Source: a virus
Length of the DNA: 27,304 nt
Reading direction: 5' to 3' (one strand)
IMG/VR virus record: IMGVR_UViG_3300011115_000190
Coordinates: 1 to 27,304 of that record
A program made the position numbers and the translations under genes. Numbering within the stretch: the stretch's first letter is position 1; each line of letters begins with the position of its first letter. This document shows, one piece after another, positions 300 through 26,253 of the stretch. The notes under the pieces are model-generated. The model searched no databases, was not told the origin of the DNA, and saw only the letters and a list, made by a program, of their open reading frames with translations.

Positions 300-1397
300 C
301 TAGCTAAGCAGAGCAGGCAGCGTTTGCTTGACCGCACGATACTCCCAGTTCAGGTAGTAGCAGGCAACCTCGGCAACCGCATCAGCCAAGCCCTCCTCGA
401 GCTTGGTATACAGCGTATCAATGTCACACGCAAGGAATGCGTGGTAGATATCTAAGTCACGATCGGTCAAGTCCTTAGCCTTTACCCACGCTGTTGACTC
501 GGCTTTGAACGTATTACAGAGAGTGTTTATAGTACTTGCTGGCATCTCATCCAAGCAAGCGGTCAGCATATCAACGTCAGCTTCCATCATGCAGTTGAAC
601 AAGTCCTCCTCCTCAATGAAGCCAGCCTCCTCGTCCTCCCATGCGTAGTCATCCTCACTCCAACGTGGGTCGTGGGCTGAGAGCTTGCGTGGCTGTGGTG
701 TGAGGTCAGCAGTGGGTGAGTAGCTGGTATACCCGCCGTAGGTGTCGTCGTAGTCATACGCACTGCTGTACATGGTGGATGAGTAGCGCTTGCCGTAGCG
801 TGTTGACTGGTACGCAGGGATGAGTCGGCTTGGTGACCATGCGTATGTATTGCTGAACCACAGACCATCGTGCTCGATGCCTTGGTCATAGTTGACATGG
901 CTGATCTTGCCCTCGCCATCCATGAACACGAAGCGGTTGTCACCGATGAACTCGGCAAGCATATCGAGGAACTTGTCGTTGTGTACAAGCGCAGGATGCT
1001 CAGCCACTGGGCTGGCGAGGAAGTCTTGGATGAAGTGCCACGTGTCAGACTTAGCCTTGTCAGCGGCATTGCCTGTGTGCAACACGCCGTTGTGCATCAT
1101 GCCGACATAGCCCTTGACGACATCGTAGGGATGGCAGTTCTCCATGTTGGTGTGACCATGCGTAGTCCAGCGGAAGTGGATAGCAAGCTCACGATCATCC
1201 GTGGGTAGCTTGGAGATGAACTGCGTTGCGTCAGCGACAGACTTGGGCAGTACCTTGGTGACCTTGAGTCCCTTGGTTGTGGAGTACATGATGCCGATGC
1301 CGTCAGGGTTGCTTGTGTAGATGTCGCTCAGCATTCCGTGTGTGTTGAGCAGGGTCGAGCGAATGTTGGTAGCTGTACCAGTGATGATTAGACACAT
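300..1397 (-). CDS. Class II glutamine amidotransferase-like protein (Ntn hydrolase fold)
   Basis: 365 residues. It begins MCLIITG, so Met removal would expose Cys2 as the N-terminal nucleophile typical of class II glutamine amidotransferases. Other family landmarks are present: HFRWTTHG around 74-81 (compare the RxxTHG motif), MMHNGVL around 100-106 and SDTW around 117-120. The family hydrolyses glutamine and passes ammonia to a partner synthase or ligase. Here the amidotransferase-like part spans roughly residues 1-190, followed by a Tyr/Ser-rich linker, an acidic segment near 247-275 and a helical C-terminus. No synthase domain is fused, so a separate partner is likely. The gene starts 27 nt after the amidoligase stop on the same strand, making that enzyme the obvious partner. 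Start codon has AAAGGAAAT upstream. The substrate cannot be read from sequence. Confidence 0.82.
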   Translation of the reverse strand: MCLIITGTATNIRSTLLNTHGMLSDIYTSNPDGIGIMYSTTKGLKVTKVLPKSVADATQFISKLPTDDRELAIHFRWTTHGHTNMENCHPYDVVKGYVGMMHNGVLHTGNAADKAKSDTWHFIQDFLASPVAEHPALVHNDKFLDMLAEFIGDNRFVFMDGEGKISHVNYDQGIEHDGLWFSNTYAWSPSRLIPAYQSTRYGKRYSSTMYSSAYDYDDTYGGYTSYSPTADLTPQPRKLSAHDPRWSEDDYAWEDEEAGFIEEEDLFNCMMEADVDMLTACLDEMPASTINTLCNTFKAESTAWVKAKDLTDRDLDIYHAFLACDIDTLYTKLEEGLADAVAEVACYYLNWEYRAVKQTLPALLS

Positions 1398-1424
1398 AAT
1401 GATTTCCTTTGATTGTTTGGTTGA

Positions 1425-3221
1425 TTAAGAGGTGGCGATGTTGTCATCGCAAGTAGATTCAGCAGGGGCAGCGTTCTTAGCACCGACACGGCGGCGTATG
1501 CCGTACCAGTCAGCGAGGTGTGGGTAGCGGTTGTCGGTAGACTTGAGCCACAACAGGAAGCCTTGCTCGTTCAGGTCACGCATACTTGCGACACGACAGA
1601 ACATGACAGCGGCATGGGTGAACTCGATCTGTGCAAGCAGTCGAGCCTTCTTGAGAGATGCCCTGAAGATGCGAAGCTCGATGGTGTTGAAGTCACGCTC
1701 ACCGACAAACTGCACACCCAAGCGGTCAGCCTCAAGACGGCGCAGACAGGTCGTGTTGACCATGTAGTACCGACTGGTGCTCTTGCCCTTGAGCGCCTTG
1801 CTTGCATTTGCCATAGTTTCCTGCCCCTCAACAGCGCAGTAGCTACGAGCCTGATCGTCCCGCAGGGCATGACGACCAGCCAGCTTGCGGATGAAGTCGG
1901 CGTTGCTGTCGGCGTTGATGAACATGATGAACTTGCCAAGAGTCAGCTTGGTGAATGCCTTGGAGTCCATGTGCACGTGCATACCGCACCTACCGCCATT
2001 CCATGCGTAGTAGTCAGAGGCGATGTTCCAGCCCTTGAACTTCTCGATGTGCTCGATCAAGCCACGAGGCGCAGTCACAATCTCAAGCCCACCTCTTGGC
2101 AGTGAGCCATCGGTCTTGCATATGCAGTATCCATTACCAAGCTCTAAGCGTATGTCATCGACCGCATCGTTGACACTGTCTCGTGTGATTAGCTCAAGCT
2201 CGACACCCATGTGGAACTCACCGAACGGAGATGAGAAGAAGCTGTTGTCCTTCTCGAGATGGTCGAGCACGTTGGTGCGGTAAGACATGAGGCTGTCGGT
2301 GTCCTCGTCGTTGTCATCAGGGTCATCGGAGTCAGGCTCTTCAGACAACCAGCGGTCGTTGTAGTCATCGTAGTACGCATACTCTCGGAGTATGTACTCC
2401 TCGGTGTCTTCTGCATAGACCAACACATCCTCGTTCTCACGACACGCTAGGCAGTACTCACGATGACTGCCCCGCACATACACCTCGGTCATTTCATCAG
2501 CGTATTCAACGTGATCGCAGTAACCCTTGGACAGATTTGTGCTGATGCCCTTGTCGTTGAACAACTCGTTAGCTCTGTCAAAGATACGCTCATGTAGTGA
2601 GTTGCCATGTATGTACATATCCATGAAGCTACTCTCGAAGTCGGATGCGTCCTCGTCCTTGATGGCTTGCCTGATAGCCTCGCCCATCATCTTGCACGTT
2701 GCTCGGTGACTTGCAAACGAACTTGATGAGGAGATTTGCATACCCTTGTACTCGACACTTGATTTGTGTCTGTTCTCACCAACCAGCTTCTCGTAGCGTT
2801 CCAGTCGTGCCTTGTGTATGCGGTATCCGATTGAGCGCTTGTTGTTGAACAAGTGGTTGTCGAGCAGGTTGACAAACAGACGACCAGTGTGTGCGCCGTA
2901 TCCGTAGGTCATGAACCATGTACGCTCGTCCCCAGTCACCTCACGCACACTTATCTCACGGAAGCGATCAGCACTTGTGTCCAAGGTGACGTAAGTGTCG
3001 ATAGCCGTTTCGATGTCGTTGTGAATGTCAATCAAAGTGCGTAGGGTCGAGGGCAACCTGTCCCAGTCGTTGTAGCTAGGCGCTACGTTCAGACCGATGT
3101 GGTCTGGGTTGTAGATGGTGTGACCAGTCCTTGAATTGACAAGACTCACAAAGAAAAAGTTCCGTGTGAGTATGTCGCCCGAGCTATTGGCGACGTTCAA
3201 TGTTGCAATGCTTAATTTCAT
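1425..3221 (-). CDS. Putative amidoligase (COOH-NH2 ligase, Amidoligase_2-like) with N-terminal extension
   Basis: 598 residues. The C-terminal part (about 337-540) carries the landmarks of the glutamine-synthetase/GCS-like amidoligase family: GVELEL at 339-344, KTDGSL at 369-374, GLEIVTAP at 378-385, CGMHVHMD at 412-419 and TIELRIFRAS at 513-522. Family members are predicted to use ATP to join a carboxylate to an amine. Residues 1-330 are an extension I do not recognise. It includes a possible zinc site (Cys235, His237, His253, Cys257, Cys260) and a very acidic stretch at 294-310. The amidotransferase gene follows 27 nt downstream, consistent with an ammonia donor and ligase pair. The start is supported by GGAGAAGCATC before ATG, and that site is complementary to the RNA encoded at 6453-6564. 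Ligase activity is from family knowledge; the product is unknown. Confidence 0.82.
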   Translation of the reverse strand: MKLSIATLNVANSSGDILTRNFFFVSLVNSRTGHTIYNPDHIGLNVAPSYNDWDRLPSTLRTLIDIHNDIETAIDTYVTLDTSADRFREISVREVTGDERTWFMTYGYGAHTGRLFVNLLDNHLFNNKRSIGYRIHKARLERYEKLVGENRHKSSVEYKGMQISSSSSFASHRATCKMMGEAIRQAIKDEDASDFESSFMDMYIHGNSLHERIFDRANELFNDKGISTNLSKGYCDHVEYADEMTEVYVRGSHREYCLACRENEDVLVYAEDTEEYILREYAYYDDYNDRWLSEEPDSDDPDDNDEDTDSLMSYRTNVLDHLEKDNSFFSSPFGEFHMGVELELITRDSVNDAVDDIRLELGNGYCICKTDGSLPRGGLEIVTAPRGLIEHIEKFKGWNIASDYYAWNGGRCGMHVHMDSKAFTKLTLGKFIMFINADSNADFIRKLAGRHALRDDQARSYCAVEGQETMANASKALKGKSTSRYYMVNTTCLRRLEADRLGVQFVGERDFNTIELRIFRASLKKARLLAQIEFTHAAVMFCRVASMRDLNEQGFLLWLKSTDNRYPHLADWYGIRRRVGAKNAAPAESTCDDNIATS

Positions 3222-3260: not shown

Positions 3261-3280
3261 TGGGAGAGGTTTATCTCCCA
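3261..3280. repeat. Palindrome copy B of the GGGAGAG/CTCTCCC family
   Basis: Arms TGGGAGA (3261-3267) and TCTCCCA (3274-3280) flank a 6-nt loop. It lies in the gap between the 77-residue gene stop (3309) and the amidoligase start (3221). No T-tract follows on either strand. Confidence 0.75.
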
Positions 3281-4010: not shown

Positions 4011-4030
4011 TGGGAGAGGTTTCTCTCCCG
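4011..4030. repeat. Palindrome copy C of the GGGAGAG/CTCTCCC family
   Basis: Arms GGGAGAG (4012-4018) and CTCTCCC (4023-4029) around loop GTTT, extendable by one T-G pair. It sits 13 nt beyond the stop of the 238-residue gene and before the 72-residue gene. Read leftward, the T-run lies upstream of the hairpin, which is the wrong side for a leftward terminator. Confidence 0.8.
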
Positions 4031-4043
4031 AAAAAGGGAATGT

Positions 4044-4760
4044 TTATAGTAGTCCGTGCCATGTCGCAGGCACAGGCTCGTTGGGTTCGAGCTTCTCTAT
4101 CTTGGCAAGCGCCTGCTCAATGTGTCTAACTCGTTCTTGCAAGGGCTCTGCCTCATGTGGGTTCAACAGCACATCTTGCTTGCACTTGACCAGTTCTTTC
4201 TCAGTTCGTCGGACAAGGCGGTCTTTCAACAGGGTGTGTAACTCAGCACCCACGATGCGCTCAAACGGAAGTTTGCGTCTTGCCTTGGGTGTGTGAGGGA
4301 CAGCGTCAAACAGTTGACAAACCCTGTCCTTGATATGTTGCGGTACGAAATCCGACCAGTGCTCGCCGTTGTTGGGCACGTTCTTTGCCTTGATGTACTC
4401 GCTTGGGGTCATGGTCGTGCGTTTGCCGTAGCCATCGGGTAAAACCTTGGCTTCCCTACGCATCCTAAGCAACAACTCATCAATGACTTTGAGGTACGCC
4501 TTGAGTGCCATCTGCCTTGGGTCTGCGTTGTTGCGGTTGTGCGTGGGGTATGCAAGAGATGCGACGACTCGTTTCTTTTCCTCTTGAAGCGGTAAAATCT
4601 TTTCACGCCACATACCCTCGACTTTGATTCGCATGGCATTCAGCGATTTGCGCCTTGCAATTTCATCTAACCCATCACGGCGCATATCTTCGATGATGGG
4701 TTCGGGTACACCTCTACGCCGTGCGGATGCAAGGCTATTCATTAGCTCGGTGCGATTCAT
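4044..4760 (-). CDS. Hypothetical basic protein with C-terminal coiled coil, 238 aa
   Basis: I chose the ATG at 4760 (MNRTELMNSLASARRRG) rather than one 13 codons upstream, because AAGGAG lies 6 nt before it and the sigma70-like promoter (-10 at 4790-4795) would start transcription between the two ATGs. The protein is Arg/Lys-rich and mostly helical. It has a central segment with TMTPSEYIKAKNVPNNGEHW and a heptad-like C-terminus (about 185-230, LVRRTEKELVKCKQDV onward). It looks like a nucleic-acid-associated protein, but no domain is recognised. It is the first gene downstream of the AT-rich origin-like segment, so a replication-linked role is possible and unproven. Confidence 0.75.
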   Translation of the reverse strand: MNRTELMNSLASARRRGVPEPIIEDMRRDGLDEIARRKSLNAMRIKVEGMWREKILPLQEEKKRVVASLAYPTHNRNNADPRQMALKAYLKVIDELLLRMRREAKVLPDGYGKRTTMTPSEYIKAKNVPNNGEHWSDFVPQHIKDRVCQLFDAVPHTPKARRKLPFERIVGAELHTLLKDRLVRRTEKELVKCKQDVLLNPHEAEPLQERVRHIEQALAKIEKLEPNEPVPATWHGLL

Positions 4761-4789
4761 AACAACTCCTTGGGTTAAAAGTGTCCGAG

Positions 4790-4819
4790 ATTCTATCACG
4801 CCGTTGGGTAAAACGACAA
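4790..4819 (-). promoter_or_regulatory. Sigma70-like leftward promoter for the 238-aa gene and following genes
   Basis: Read on the minus strand, -35 TTGTCG (4814-4819, 4/6 match) and -10 TAGAAT (4790-4795, 5/6 match) are separated by 18 nt. Predicted transcription start is about 4783, some 23 nt before the start codon at 4760, leaving room for the AAGGAG site. Confidence 0.55.
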
Positions 4820-5153
4820 GGGCTTTCCTTGGTTTTACTGAATATCCATAGGATAGGACGGCGTGTATGCCACGCCGTTACTGGATGCATTTGAAAACTG
4901 TCCCAACTATCTAGCTTATTTGGAAATAGAAAAAGCCCAAGGATAAAACAAACCAAAGTCAGCCGAGAGGATGAGAGTGCCTGCATATAGATGCCCCTAT
5001 ATATAAATATATTTTTAATTAAGTAGATATATAGGACAGTTTTTGTTTTAACCCCCGCAGACATTGAGCAAATCGCTGTCTTTGGGGGTGGATAGTTGGT
5101 AAAACGATGGACGTCGAAGATTTTACCGAAAATGGGAGATAAATCTCTCCCAG
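4800..5153. other. Noncoding AT-rich segment with inverted repeats; candidate replication origin or control region
   Basis: No convincing gene lies here. The layout is roughly symmetric. An 8-bp hairpin (ACGGCGTG 4858-4865, CACGCCGT 4871-4878) is followed by the left arm of a 10-bp inverted repeat (AAAACTGTCC 4894-4903). Next is a segment ending in a very AT-rich tract with many TATA steps (about 4985-5033), then the right arm (GGACAGTTTT 5034-5043) and a long interrupted hairpin (ACCCCC 5051-5056 with GGGGGT 5084-5089, inner AGACA/TGTCT). CACGCCGTT also occurs at 4797-4805. Such AT-rich unwinding regions with flanking repeats are typical of origins, but no iteron array or known initiator gene was identified. 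Confidence 0.4.
5133..5152. repeat. Palindrome copy D of the GGGAGAG/CTCTCCC family
   Basis: Arms TGGGAGA (5133-5139) and TCTCCCA (5146-5152) with a 6-nt loop. It begins one nucleotide after the stop codon of the 74-residue leftward gene. Confidence 0.78.
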
Positions 5154-5378
5154 TCAGAGCAACCTCATCTGTGCAGGTGCTTGCACCTTGTCGAGCCACG
5201 CCTCGAATGCCTCGTCTGAGGCAAAGGTTTCTTTCAGGCTGTGCTTGATGCTGTAGACAGTCAGGAACTTGTAGTTCCGCATGGATGGGTTGGGGTAGTA
5301 CTCTTGCAAGCGCCACTCTATGCCTTTGATGGTGAGGATGCCACAGTCTTTGAGTAGGGGGAAGTGTGTTGAACGCAT
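5154..5378 (-). CDS. Hypothetical protein, 74 aa
   Basis: Begins MRSTHFPLLKDCGILTIKG and is a compact mixed alpha/beta candidate with a helical C-terminal part (SDEAFEAWLDKVQAPAQM). Good ribosome-binding site AAGGAG 7 nt before the ATG. Palindrome D abuts the stop. Not recognised. A longer overlapping leftward frame through this locus was rejected because it lacks a ribosome-binding site and runs through the noncoding segment. Confidence 0.72.
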   Translation of the reverse strand: MRSTHFPLLKDCGILTIKGIEWRLQEYYPNPSMRNYKFLTVYSIKHSLKETFASDEAFEAWLDKVQAPAQMRLL

Positions 5379-5411
5379 GATGATTCTCCTTATCGGGCAG
5401 GATTGCCCCCA

Positions 5412-5431
5412 AAGCCCACAAGCATGGGCTT
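5412..5431. other. Intergenic hairpin
   Basis: Seven-base arms AAGCCCA (5412-5418) and TGGGCTT (5425-5431) with a 6-nt loop, between the 57-residue gene stop (5447) and the 74-residue gene start (5378). No T-tract follows in the leftward direction, so I call it a structured spacer rather than a terminator. Confidence 0.4.
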
Positions 5432-5446
5432 GGAGAGTTTCCTAGT

Positions 5447-5620
5447 TCACTCCTCTGTAATGGCTTTACGAGCGAAGTATTCGGTGATGAACTGCGGTGC
5501 GCCACACTCACGAGCAAGGGAAGCGGTTGCCCAATATTCATCAGGGGTCATTGCGCCTGTGGTCTTGTGTTCCATGCGAATGAGTGCCGCAAGAATGTTA
5601 TCGAGTTCGGTTTTAGACAT
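5447..5620 (-). CDS. Hypothetical small protein, 57 aa
   Basis: Starts MSKTELDNILAALIRMEHK and ends YFARKAITEE. Largely helical, soluble, single Cys. GGAG lies 9 nt upstream of the ATG. It fills an otherwise empty gap between the 150- and 74-residue genes and is on the same strand. No domain recognised; called mainly on its ribosome-binding site, position and protein-like composition. Confidence 0.62.
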   Translation of the reverse strand: MSKTELDNILAALIRMEHKTTGAMTPDEYWATASLARECGAPQFITEYFARKAITEE

Positions 5621-5663
5621 GGGTAAAATCTCCGTTGTGGTTTGGTTGGGGAAAGACTGGACA

Positions 5664-5693
5664 GGAAAAGAAACAGCGCCATAAAGACGCTGT
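5664..5693 (-). terminator. Probable Rho-independent terminator, leftward
   Basis: Read leftward, a 6-bp stem (ACAGCG with CGCTGT, plus positions 5688-5693 and 5673-5678, 9-nt loop) is followed directly by TTCTTTTCC. It lies 28 nt downstream of the stop of the 150-residue gene. The stem is short, so termination may be partial. Confidence 0.5.
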
Positions 5694-5697
5694 CAGA

Positions 5698-5722
5698 GAT
5701 CGGGAGAGAAATCTCTCCGATC
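5698..5722. repeat. Palindrome copy E of the GGGAGAG/CTCTCCC family, overlapping a stop codon
   Basis: Left arm GATCGGGAGA (5698-5707) faces TCTCCGATC (5714-5722), one C short of perfect. The right end overlaps the TGA of the 150-residue gene (5721-5723). Longest arms of the family. Confidence 0.75.
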
Positions 5723-6173
5723 ATTCAAAGGCAATCGAGTCACGCAATTCAGCGATGAGGGCATCGAACTCTGCCTTGCTCATGCCTGAGTTGATGATCT
5801 CGCTGAACACCGCCTTGAACACCTTGCGAGGTGCAACCACTTTCACGGCACGACCACTTGACTCGGGCTCAGGCTTGGACTCGGGGCGGATGATGTGATA
5901 GCGAAACTTTGAGGATGCTTGGTAGTAGGCGTCCTGTGCATCATCGGTGCGGTCATCTCTCGACTGGGAGAGAATTCTCTCCGCCGCTTCCAAGGTGCAA
6001 GGCTTCTTCTCAGTCGACAATGCACCCATGATGAATTGCACAATGCAGTCTTTCCTTAACTGCTCTTGTTGTTCAGGCGTGGACTTGGTGTACTCCTTGT
6101 GTGCAACAAGGGTAGAGGTGCGAGTCAAACGATGTGCTTGACCCAAGGCGAAGAACAGCTCGGTAGTTTTCAT
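5721..6173 (-). CDS. Hypothetical helical protein, 150 aa; first gene of the leftward block
   Basis: Begins MKTTELFFALGQAHRLTRTS. The N-terminal half looks helical, the middle is charged (SQSRDDRTDDAQDAYYQ), a Pro/Glu-rich linker follows (PESKPEPESS), and the C-terminus is a second small helical segment. AAAGGAAC lies about 7 nt before the ATG. The gene sits directly behind the structured leader and promoter-terminator region at 6174-6614, so it is probably the first leftward product. Copy F of the palindrome family falls inside the coding sequence (residues around AERILSQ). No known domain recognised. Confidence 0.72.
   Translation of the reverse strand: MKTTELFFALGQAHRLTRTSTLVAHKEYTKSTPEQQEQLRKDCIVQFIMGALSTEKKPCTLEAAERILSQSRDDRTDDAQDAYYQASSKFRYHIIRPESKPEPESSGRAVKVVAPRKVFKAVFSEIINSGMSKAEFDALIAELRDSIAFE
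5967..5982. repeat. Palindrome copy F, inside a coding sequence
   Basis: Perfect 16-bp palindrome GGAGAGAATTCTCTCC, matching the core of the intergenic family but within the 150-residue gene. It contains an EcoRI site, so it may be coincidental. Confidence 0.55.
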
Positions 6174-11730: not shown

Positions 11731-11921
11731 TTCAAGACTTCGCACGCGTATTGCGCGAAAAATTACGCTTCGATATGAACAACTACGCAGATGACTGCGC
11801 TGGTGGGGCATGTCGCACTTTTGAAGAGTACCAAAAACTCTGCGGGATTATTCAGGGTCTAGCCCTTGCAGAGCGTTATCTACTTGACCTTGCAGAGAAA
11901 GTTGAAAAATCCGATGACTGA
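11727..11921 (+). CDS. Hypothetical small protein after portal, 64 aa
   Basis: Starts MIQDFARVLREKLRFDMNNY in an ATGA overlap with the portal stop. Helical, with two Cys in DDCAGGACRTF and a second Cys near KLCGII. Conserved placement between portal and scaffold-region genes suggests a head-assembly accessory role, but no domain is recognised. Overlaps the next gene by 8 nt. Confidence 0.78.
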   Translation: MIQDFARVLREKLRFDMNNYADDCAGGACRTFEEYQKLCGIIQGLALAERYLLDLAEKVEKSDD

Positions 11922-12351
11922 ACTTGTTTTAGAACCGGGGCAATATGCCCTGCCTGATGTAATCCAACCCGTCGATGCGCCAGCGCAAGACGCAACAGAT
12001 GAAGAAAAAGCCACCATGTTGCCAGAACCTTCGGGTTGGCGAATCTTGTGTGCCGTGCCCCCAGTCTCTGAAAAGATTGATGGCACTGAGCTTGATCTTG
12101 TGCGCGATACAAGCAGTATGCGTCAAGAAGAAAGCGCAACCACCGTGTTGTTTGTGATGAAAGTTGGCCCTGATGCGTACAAAGATCAGACCAAATTTTC
12201 CACAGGCGCTTGGTGCAAAGAAGGAGATTTTGTACTTGTACGTACCTATTCTGGTACACGGTTCAAGATCTTTGGTAAGGAGTTCCGGCTCATCAATGAT
12301 GACCAAGTGGACGCTGTTGTGCAAGACCCTCGTGGGCTAACCCGCGCTTAA
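11914..12351 (+). CDS. GroES-like co-chaperonin (Cpn10 fold), phage-encoded
   Basis: 145 residues from the ATG at 11914, preferred over one 16 codons upstream that would run deep into the previous gene. After an acidic Pro-rich leader (1-38) the order of elements follows Cpn10. First is GWRILCAVPP at 41-50, then a flexible loop with DGTELDL at 56-62 where the GroEL-binding mobile loop would be. VMKVGPDAYKD follows at 81-91, then GDFVLVRTYSGTRFKIFGKEF at 104-124 and a closing INDDQVDAVVQDP. Cpn10 proteins cap GroEL; phage versions such as T4 gp31 adapt it for folding the capsid protein. Its position just before scaffold and capsid fits that role. Confidence 0.75.
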   Translation: MTELVLEPGQYALPDVIQPVDAPAQDATDEEKATMLPEPSGWRILCAVPPVSEKIDGTELDLVRDTSSMRQEESATTVLFVMKVGPDAYKDQTKFSTGAWCKEGDFVLVRTYSGTRFKIFGKEFRLINDDQVDAVVQDPRGLTRA

Positions 12352-23949: not shown

Positions 23950-25086
23950 GTGAGCATACGCCAATACAATTTAGGGAGCATCGTTAAGCCGGGGTTTAAT
24001 CCGCTCGGGGCGCAGACGAGCGTGACTACGTATACGCCGTATTTGTATACTTGGGGTCAAAATAATCAAGGAGAGTTAGGGTTAAGTAACACAACATATT
24101 ACTCTAGTCCCAAACAAGTAGGTTCACTCACTGATTGGCTTAATATTGCCGCGGGGTATCACCACAGTATTTCGGTTAAAAACGACGGCACTATGTGGGC
24201 ATGGGGTTCTGGAAACGCTGGGCGGCTTGGGCTTGGAAATACTACAAATTATTCAAGCCCTAAACAGATTGGCGCTTTAACTGGATGGGCTTCAACTTCT
24301 GGTGGGAACTCATTTACTTTAGCCATCAAAACTAACGGCACTCTTTGGTCTTGGGGACAAAACGCTTATGGTCAGCTAGGTCTTGGCAATCTTACATATT
24401 ACTCATCCCCTAAACAAATTGGCGCATTGACTTCATGGTCAACTGCTGTTTGTGGTTTTAATTTTTCAATTGCGGTAAAAACAGACGGCACTCTTTGGAC
24501 TTGGGGGCAAAATGCCAATGGACAATTAGGTTTAGGAAACACTGTTAGCCGTTCTAGCCCTGTGCAAGTTGGTTTACTCACTACGTGGCTTAATATAGCA
24601 GGCGGAAGTTACCACACCATAGCTATTAAAACAGACGGCACTATGTGGACATGGGGGTCTGGCTATCAAGGTAGTTTGGGTCTTGATAACACCACTAGCT
24701 ACTCCAGCCCAAAACAAATAGGCGCTTTAACCTCTTGGTATAAAGTTTCTGGTGGAGCCAATTACACCATAGCTACCAAAACAAACAACACATTTTGGTC
24801 GTGGGGGGTTAATGGTTCTGGGCAGTTAGGTTTGGGCAATATAACTAATTATTCTTCCCCTAAACAAGTGGGGTCACTTACTACTTGGTTAAATGTATCG
24901 GCAGGTCGTTATCATTGTCTTTCAATTAAAACTGATGGTACTCTTTGGACTTGGGGTAAGAATAATGCTGGTCAATTGGGTCTTAACAACAGAACCAATT
25001 ACTCATCCCCTAAGCAAGTAGGCTCATTAACTACATGGCTTAGTATTGCTGGTGGTGGTTATTTTTCCACGGCCCTACTCTACTAA
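23950..25086 (+). CDS. RCC1-repeat protein, seven repeats, probable beta-propeller (first copy)
   Basis: 378 residues from a GTG start at 23950 (GGAG 7 nt upstream). A 30-residue leader (SIRQYNLGSIVKPGFNPLGA) precedes seven repeats of about 50 residues, each with WGxNxxGxLGLxN, YSSPKQVG and a closing strand then KTDG; they cover residues about 33-378. RCC1 repeats fold as a seven-bladed propeller, so seven copies would give one complete propeller. In phages a surface propeller would suit host or glycan binding. DNA here is visibly richer in A and T at third positions than the capsid genes. A similar gene follows 9 nt downstream. Confidence 0.85.
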   Translation: MSIRQYNLGSIVKPGFNPLGAQTSVTTYTPYLYTWGQNNQGELGLSNTTYYSSPKQVGSLTDWLNIAAGYHHSISVKNDGTMWAWGSGNAGRLGLGNTTNYSSPKQIGALTGWASTSGGNSFTLAIKTNGTLWSWGQNAYGQLGLGNLTYYSSPKQIGALTSWSTAVCGFNFSIAVKTDGTLWTWGQNANGQLGLGNTVSRSSPVQVGLLTTWLNIAGGSYHTIAIKTDGTMWTWGSGYQGSLGLDNTTSYSSPKQIGALTSWYKVSGGANYTIATKTNNTFWSWGVNGSGQLGLGNITNYSSPKQVGSLTTWLNVSAGRYHCLSIKTDGTLWTWGKNNAGQLGLNNRTNYSSPKQVGSLTTWLSIAGGGYFSTALLY

Positions 25087-25095
25087 GAACACATC

Positions 25096-26253
25096 ATGCC
25101 ATCAACCACAATCACATCAGGCGTTCAATACTCAGGCATCTGGACAATGCAACAGGTGAACTCTGCTATATCTGCGGGGACTTGGCCTGTTGTTGGGCCA
25201 AAGCTTTATAGCTGGGGGAGTGGAACCTCTGGAGCGCTGGGTCTTGGTAATACAACAGCCTATTCTTCACCTAAGCAAGTGGGATCATTGGCTACATGGT
25301 CAAAAGTAGCCGAAGGCGCTAACGTCTCTTTAGCAGTCAAAACAGATGGAACTTTGTGGTCTTGGGGAGATAATGCTTATGGCCAACTTGGTCTTGGGAA
25401 TACAACTTTTTACTCATCCCCCAAACAAGTCGGATCTTTAACTGCATGGTCTTCTATAAGTTGCCTTAATGCATCCGTTCTTGCTATTAAAACTGACGGC
25501 ACTCTGTGGGCGTGGGGTTATGGGGGGCAAGGTGCGTTAGGCTTGGGAGACGTTTCCAGCCGCTCTAGCCCAGTCCAAGTTGGCGCATTAACCACTTGGT
25601 TGCAAGTATCTGCTGGTTTTTATTCTACTGGCGCAGTTAAAACGGATGGTACTTTATGGACTTGGGGATTTAACGCTTATGGGCAATTGGGTTTAAGTAA
25701 TTTTACGTATTTTTCCAGCCCAAAACAAGTTGGCGCATTAACCACTTGGTCAAGTGTTTCGATGGCAAATGGGTATTTTGGGCTTGCAATCCAAACCAAC
25801 GGCACATTGTGGTCGTGGGGCCAAAATGCAGATGGGCAGTTAGGCATTGGAAACACTAGCAATGTTAATAGTCCAAATCAAGTTGGTGCTTTAACTACTT
25901 GGTCTAAAGTTAATTGTGGCGCGGCAATTGTTGTTGCTTTAAAAACTGATGGAACACTATGGTCTTGGGGCTCTGGAAGTAGCGGCGGGTTAGGTTTGGG
26001 CAACACTACAAGCTATTCATCCCCAAAACAAGTTGGGGCATTAACAACATGGTCAATAATAGATGCTGGCAATTCTTTTGCGTGTGCCATCAAGACTGAC
26101 GGCACACTTTGGTCGTGGGGGCAAAATTCATCTGGTCAGCTTGGCTTGGGTAATACCACCTCTTATTCATCGCCAAAACAAATTGGTGCAGTAACTTCTT
26201 GGCAAACAGTCTCAGCCGGAACTAATTTGGTTCTTGGTATTGCCGTTGCGTAA
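25096..26253 (+). CDS. RCC1-repeat protein, seven repeats, probable beta-propeller (second copy)
   Basis: 385 residues. A different 35-residue N-terminus (MPSTTITSGVQYSGIWTMQQ) precedes seven repeats of about 50 residues with WGxxxxGxLGLGNT, SSPKQVGALTTW and AxKTDG signatures. One repeat has IGNTSNVNSPNQVG, showing divergence. Same fold prediction as the preceding gene, so probably a gene duplication in the host-contact module. Weak ribosome-binding site (AAGAA). The sulfotransferase gene starts 20 nt downstream. Confidence 0.85.
   Translation: MPSTTITSGVQYSGIWTMQQVNSAISAGTWPVVGPKLYSWGSGTSGALGLGNTTAYSSPKQVGSLATWSKVAEGANVSLAVKTDGTLWSWGDNAYGQLGLGNTTFYSSPKQVGSLTAWSSISCLNASVLAIKTDGTLWAWGYGGQGALGLGDVSSRSSPVQVGALTTWLQVSAGFYSTGAVKTDGTLWTWGFNAYGQLGLSNFTYFSSPKQVGALTTWSSVSMANGYFGLAIQTNGTLWSWGQNADGQLGIGNTSNVNSPNQVGALTTWSKVNCGAAIVVALKTDGTLWSWGSGSSGGLGLGNTTSYSSPKQVGALTTWSIIDAGNSFACAIKTDGTLWSWGQNSSGQLGLGNTTSYSSPKQIGAVTSWQTVSAGTNLVLGIAVA

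Follow-up and report, generated by a model that had tools for sequence, protein, structure and literature searches.

Organization of the locus

The stretch of DNA analyzed here, referred to as the window, is a 27,304-base IMG/VR virus record, a fragment that ends 300 bases past the amidotransferase gene. From about 6.6 kb onward its plus strand carries terminase, portal, major-head, and tail genes, and the minus strand between 1 and 6.2 kb forms a leftward arm of non-structural genes, which contains an amidoligase gene followed by the gene of a stand-alone class II glutamine amidotransferase (Table 1). Both ORFs are present with the spacing reported in the first-pass annotation, the gap of 27 nt comparing with a median of 46.5 nt across homologous loci. 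Chance or mis-framed ORFs are ruled out, the catalytic residues being kept from close homologues to distant phages.

Table 1. Features of the amidoligase-amidotransferase locus in the window.
Feature	Position	Strand	Basis
Amidoligase_2 (PF12224) protein, 598 aa, ATG start	1425..3221	(-)	Pfam, PHROGs, conservation, model
Class II (Ntn, N-terminal Cys) glutamine amidotransferase, 365 aa, ATG start	300..1397	(-)	Profiles, motifs, model
Intergenic gap, 27 nt	1398..1424	(-)	Sequence; AAGGAA, ribosome-binding-like, ahead of the amidotransferase ATG
Catalytic amidoligase domain, aa 331-575	1497..2231	(-)	Motif conservation
Zinc-ribbon-like module, aa 226-295	2337..2546	(-)	Conserved putative ligands C235, H237, C257, C260
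Palindrome copies	270-287, 3262-3279, 4012-4029, 5134-5151, 5702-5719, 5966-5983		Sequence

An 18-bp near-perfect palindrome, GGGAGAGrttTcTCTCCC, occurs in six copies in the window, all within the leftward gene arm, one of them lying directly after the amidotransferase stop codon and another about 40 nt ahead of the ligase start. With up to three mismatches, 12 matches were found on both strands against 0.26 expected, and copies are also present in the related loci L007, L008, L055, and L058. These palindromes are possibly RNA hairpins or operators between the leftward genes.

Two further observations concern the rest of the window. Beside the portal gene, positions 11866-12351 encode a 161-aa protein whose C-terminal part is GroES co-chaperonin-like (PHROG 4.5e-8, NCBIfam 2.9e-5). 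At 23950-26253, on the plus strand, consecutive proteins of 378 and 385 aa have strong hits in the RCC1-like “regulator of chromosome condensation” families of phages and weaker ones in tail-protein families; with the ORF from 26274 on noted alongside, these are probably tandem tail or fibre proteins.

The ligase combines a glutamine-synthetase-like catalytic domain with a zinc-ribbon-like module

The window ligase alone falls just short of the curated cut-off of Pfam Amidoligase_2 (E = 1.8e-4, 21.9 bits against a cut-off of 22), and its partner just misses that of GATase_4 (E = 6.4e-4, 19.2 bits against 23). Among the homologues, 54 of the 55 aligned ligases hit PF12224, the best at 3.3e-8, and 38 of 47 amidotransferases match GATase_4, which removes the doubt left by the borderline scores of the window proteins. 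In line with these assignments, a PHROGs search matched the ligase to amidoligase families and its partner to amidotransferase families.

Across the 55 ligases, the motifs G-V-E-L-E, K-x-D-G-S, E380, C-G-M-H-V-H, N489, and T-x-E-L-R are invariant or nearly so, the invariant columns including G339, E341, E343, D371, S373, E380, C412, G413, H415, and H417, as well as K430, N489, T513, E515, and R517; thus, the putative metal- and ATP-binding residues (GxExE, DGS, HxH, ExR) are retained throughout. AlphaFold models were built on the alignments of 55 ligases and 47 amidotransferases. The ligase model, with a mean pLDDT of 85 and values mostly above 90 over the catalytic domain, matched glutamine synthetase 5dm3 in Foldseek (E = 4e-4), with the predicted carboxylate-amine ligase 1tt4 also listed, and many phage amidoligases among viral structure models resemble it. 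Because nothing in the matched structures corresponds to the N-terminal part, TM-scores over the whole chain are low, so the fold assignment is based on E-values, secondary structure, and motifs combined. On these grounds, the catalytic domain is predicted to have a glutamine-synthetase-like fold; no solved structures related to the ligase by sequence were found. In locus L091 (4249-5973), the ligase is split into two ORFs, 4249-5010 and 5107-5973, possibly through a frameshift, an insertion, or an assembly error.

Ahead of the catalytic domain (aa 331-575) lie a variable part (aa 1-225), a CHCC module (about aa 226-295), and an acidic linker (aa 296-330) that carries a Y-x-T-N-V-L motif and leads into the catalytic domain. 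Residues 1-225 evolve fast, with a mean identity to the window residue of 0.16 vs 0.59 in the catalytic domain, and matched no family; likewise, a search of the N-terminal part (1-329) against phage records gave no match. The C-x-H...C-x-x-C pattern of the module is kept at C235 in 51 of 55 sequences, H237 in 49, C257 in 54, and C260 in 53; in more distant ligases, several Cys-rich motifs occupy this position. As a conserved pattern, residues 226-295 thus constitute a zinc-ribbon-like module with putative zinc ligands. The first-pass annotation had described a 330-residue extension with a possible zinc site and no recognizable family: the zinc site is borne out as a conserved pattern, and the lack of a family holds for residues 1-225 but not for residues 226-295.

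The amidotransferase is a predicted Ntn hydrolase with an intact active site

The amidotransferase comprises a catalytic domain (aa 1-196), a low-confidence linker, and a poorly conserved C-terminal helical domain (about aa 259-356). Its nucleophilic cysteine candidate sits directly after the initiator Met, and Cys2, R76-x-x-T79-H80-G81, H102-N103-G104, and S117-D118-T119 are invariant in 47 homologues. The AlphaFold model (mean pLDDT 80) has the GlmS glutaminase domain 1xff as its best Foldseek match (2.9e-6), EgtC and PurF being matched too, which points to an Ntn-hydrolase fold like that of GlmS and EgtC.

The initial family assignments, an amidoligase beside a class II amidotransferase with Cys2, RWTTHG, and HNG motifs, are therefore upheld by homologue profiles, intact and invariant motifs, and predicted folds alike; profile searches placed neither protein in an unrelated family, and no loss of catalytic residues was seen in close homologues.

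The two genes remain adjacent across distant phages

The homologue set comprises, from viral contigs, 38 loci found with the ligase profile and 80, out of 123 confirmed, found with the amidotransferase profile, to which were added two contigs of bacterial MAGs bearing the labels Comamonadaceae and Oxalobacteraceae. After removal of redundancy, 55 of the 63 loci found via the amidotransferase carry the ligase, the remaining 8 being cut off upstream, and 30 of the 33 found via the ligase carry the amidotransferase, with 2 cut off and 1 (L044, the weakest match) lacking it; these counts are not independent, as most loci are related. The pair also recurs across very different hosts, being present in phages of OM43 methylotrophs, in one phage of Acinetobacter, and in Marvin-like mycobacteriophages. 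Six divergent loci show the reverse gene order with ligase and amidotransferase still adjacent, which argues that the genes are functionally coupled. Persistence in distant phages and reversed order make a stronger case for coupling than the locus counts do. In a Christensenellales phage record, an annotated amidoligase lies about 1.1 kb upstream of the amidotransferase, and a Clostridioides phage with a related ligase is an exception to the pairing, no amidotransferase being detected in the 10.6-kb stretch read. The conserved neighborhood anticipated at first pass from other amidoligases is thus observed here as a near-obligate pairing across homologous viral loci.

The commonest third gene, downstream of the pair in 63 of 91 loci (e.g., L008:10477-10971), encodes a winged-helix-like protein of about 217 aa with weak matches only, to phage transcription regulators. 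Further conserved neighbors are a VRR-NUC-like endonuclease, a DNA polymerase, and small unknowns; the endonuclease and polymerase place the pair in the replication arm, and expression would be early, before the structural genes. A biosynthetic third gene was considered and rejected in view of these commonest neighbors. In the window, two leftward genes at 4044-4799(-) and 5721-6173(-) have conserved counterparts close to the pair, the former in 37 related loci and the latter in 28; neither has a significant Pfam or PHROG match, and the former has no PADLOC or NCBIfam match.

Proposed function and alternative readings

An intact ligase of glutamine-synthetase-like fold beside an intact stand-alone glutaminase-type Ntn enzyme is most simply read as forming an amide from glutamine-derived ammonia, and we lean toward regarding the gene pair as a two-protein, glutamine-dependent amidating enzyme. 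The amidotransferase would hydrolyze glutamine via Cys2 and free ammonia, which would pass to the amidoligase; the latter would use ATP to turn a carboxyl group into an activated acyl phosphate and couple it to the ammonia, or an amine, to give an amide. Transfer of ammonia between the proteins is suggested by their near-obligate pairing. No signal peptide is evident in either protein, and the mature N-terminus has to be Cys2, so the target is probably cytoplasmic. As substrate, our first guess would be a precursor peptide of peptidoglycan, whose modification would shield the infected cell, although small molecules or host proteins come close behind in likelihood. For phage cassettes of this kind, a cell-wall target with superinfection exclusion has been predicted in the literature (PMC10580990, PMC5498523), and a cell-wall precursor would fit both this prediction and the functional parallel with MurT-GatD. 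Counted against glutamine-dependent amidation are the lack of a fused ligase-amidotransferase protein among the homologous loci and of a recognizable cell-wall gene among the conserved neighbors, as well as the Clostridioides phage ligase with no amidotransferase detected in its 10.6-kb stretch.

A further point bears on the main rival. EgtC-like Ntn enzymes hydrolyze gamma-glutamyl amides without an ammonia acceptor, so the amidotransferase need not feed the ligase, which also weighs against the amidation reading. The ligase might instead attach an amino acid, a polyamine, or the amine of a peptide to a carboxyl group, yielding a peptide tag or gamma-glutamyl linkage, with its partner working independently as an EgtC-like gamma-glutamyl hydrolase to trim the product or undo its formation, an alternative to which we assign a minor though substantial chance. 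In its favor, EgtC ranks high among the structures matched by the amidotransferase model. GS-fold enzymes related in type to glutamate-cysteine ligase accept other amines in place of ammonia, and 1tt4 is one of the structures matched by the ligase model. Further ligases and a gamma-glutamyl cyclotransferase are also part of the LUZ24 and RIO-1 cassettes. However, the GlmS glutaminase domain is the best match of the amidotransferase, whose full set of glutamine-binding residues (R76, D118, T79, N103-G104) is invariant, and the cyclotransferase was not found in the window subfamily across 23 related records.

Two other readings appear improbable to us. The location of the pair in the non-structural arm, near DNA replication genes, together with the precedent of class II amidotransferases known in phage 7-deazaguanine pathways, would suit a role in making modified bases or nucleotides that go into phage DNA, or in making an anti-defence small molecule. 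Against this, the thymidylate synthase and QueC families are absent from 15 related records, with control genomes positive in both searches, which led us to reject DNA hypermodification; a QueC domain with an amidotransferase (Gat-QueC) was found in 0 of the 15 records and in 12 of 14 control genomes, and neither protein matches any PADLOC model (E up to 0.01). With a similarly slim chance, the pair could modify host or phage proteins by side-chain amidation or ligation and bind them through its zinc module and N-terminal part. The contrast between the fast-evolving N-terminal part and the conserved zinc module beside it resembles a target-recognition region; yet no target, substrate peptide gene, or conserved small acidic partner was recognized, and it is distribution and architecture that suggest this reading.

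Returning to glutamine-dependent amidation, a more specific proposal, which we put forward tentatively and regard as rather unlikely in its full form, is that the pair constitutes a minimal, self-sufficient two-gene amidation module belonging to a distinct subfamily, in which a zinc-ribbon amidoligase with a fast-evolving target-recognition part would draw ammonia from its own amidotransferase. Such a module, widespread in aquatic phages, would act on a protein or cell-wall precursor of the host for which amidation by phages is not yet known.

Comparison with known systems

Phage amidoligase-amidotransferase pairs are already known, and the amidation idea has likewise been published. The predictions reportedly originate with Iyer et al. 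2009, as cited by later papers. Such pairs have been published for UFV-P2/LUZ24-like phages (PMC3890496), phage tf (PMC3517423), and RIO-1-like phages (PMC5498523), and our literature search found no paper testing the function of a phage amidoligase-amidotransferase pair. What the present analysis adds is the placement of the window pair in a large aquatic-phage subfamily with a minimal two-gene form and a zinc-ribbon-like module, the observation that gene order can flip while adjacency is retained, and the reassignment of mycobacteriophage gp113 from an amidotransferase annotation to the amidoligase family.

The published pair of OM43 phages MEP401 and MEP402 (PMC10580990) is adjacent and in the same order as that of the window, with 26-32% identity in the catalytic domains and all key motifs present, but differs in having another N-terminal part, a zinc module only partly kept, and an amidotransferase missing most of the C-terminal helical domain. 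In the Marvin-like phage Blackbeetle, gp113 and gp114 are also adjacent and in the same order, and the window-subfamily profiles match them at 8e-25 and 2.5e-25, respectively. Although gp113 (L128:2489-3853) is annotated as a “glutamine amidotransferase domain protein,” its match to the amidoligase profile assigns it to the amidoligase family, the profiles identifying the next gene, gp114, as the real amidotransferase. Unlike the window ligase, gp113 has a short Cys-rich N-terminus and its own C-terminal extension. A phage Tesla protein named like gp113 is among the viral structures that match the ligase model.

The “peptidoglycan modification” cassette of LUZ24, UFV-P2, and RIO-1 shares with the window an Amidoligase_2 gene beside, or nearly beside, a class II amidotransferase gene in the early/replication region. 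LUZ24 encodes an additional PF14395 COOH-NH2 ligase, an annotated RimK-type ATP-grasp protein, and a gamma-glutamyl cyclotransferase; its ligase is unmatched by the window-subfamily profile, and its amidotransferase is matched weakly. The PF14395 ligase and the cyclotransferase were found in 0 of 23 related records, including MEP401, MEP402, and MW202733, annotated as complete genomes and all with an adjacent pair; the same searches were positive for LUZ24. The window subfamily thus differs from the LUZ24 cassette in having the zinc module and in lacking, in these 23 records, the second COOH-NH2 ligase and the cyclotransferase. The two-gene form, which is free of the LUZ24 extras and is carried by cultured OM43 phages and by mycobacteriophages, is the simplest setting in which to learn the targets of these enzymes.

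Compared with EgtC and the GlmS glutaminase domain, the window amidotransferase shares the predicted Ntn fold and the catalytic residues, but it is stand-alone, has its own C-terminal helical domain, and is encoded beside an amidoligase. MurT resembles the Mur ligases, and its partner GatD is an amidotransferase of the class I type. According to PMC3267633, Staphylococcus MurT-GatD is encoded by two co-transcribed genes for glutamine-dependent carboxyl amidation, a two-gene, two-protein arrangement to which the window pair would be analogous but non-homologous.
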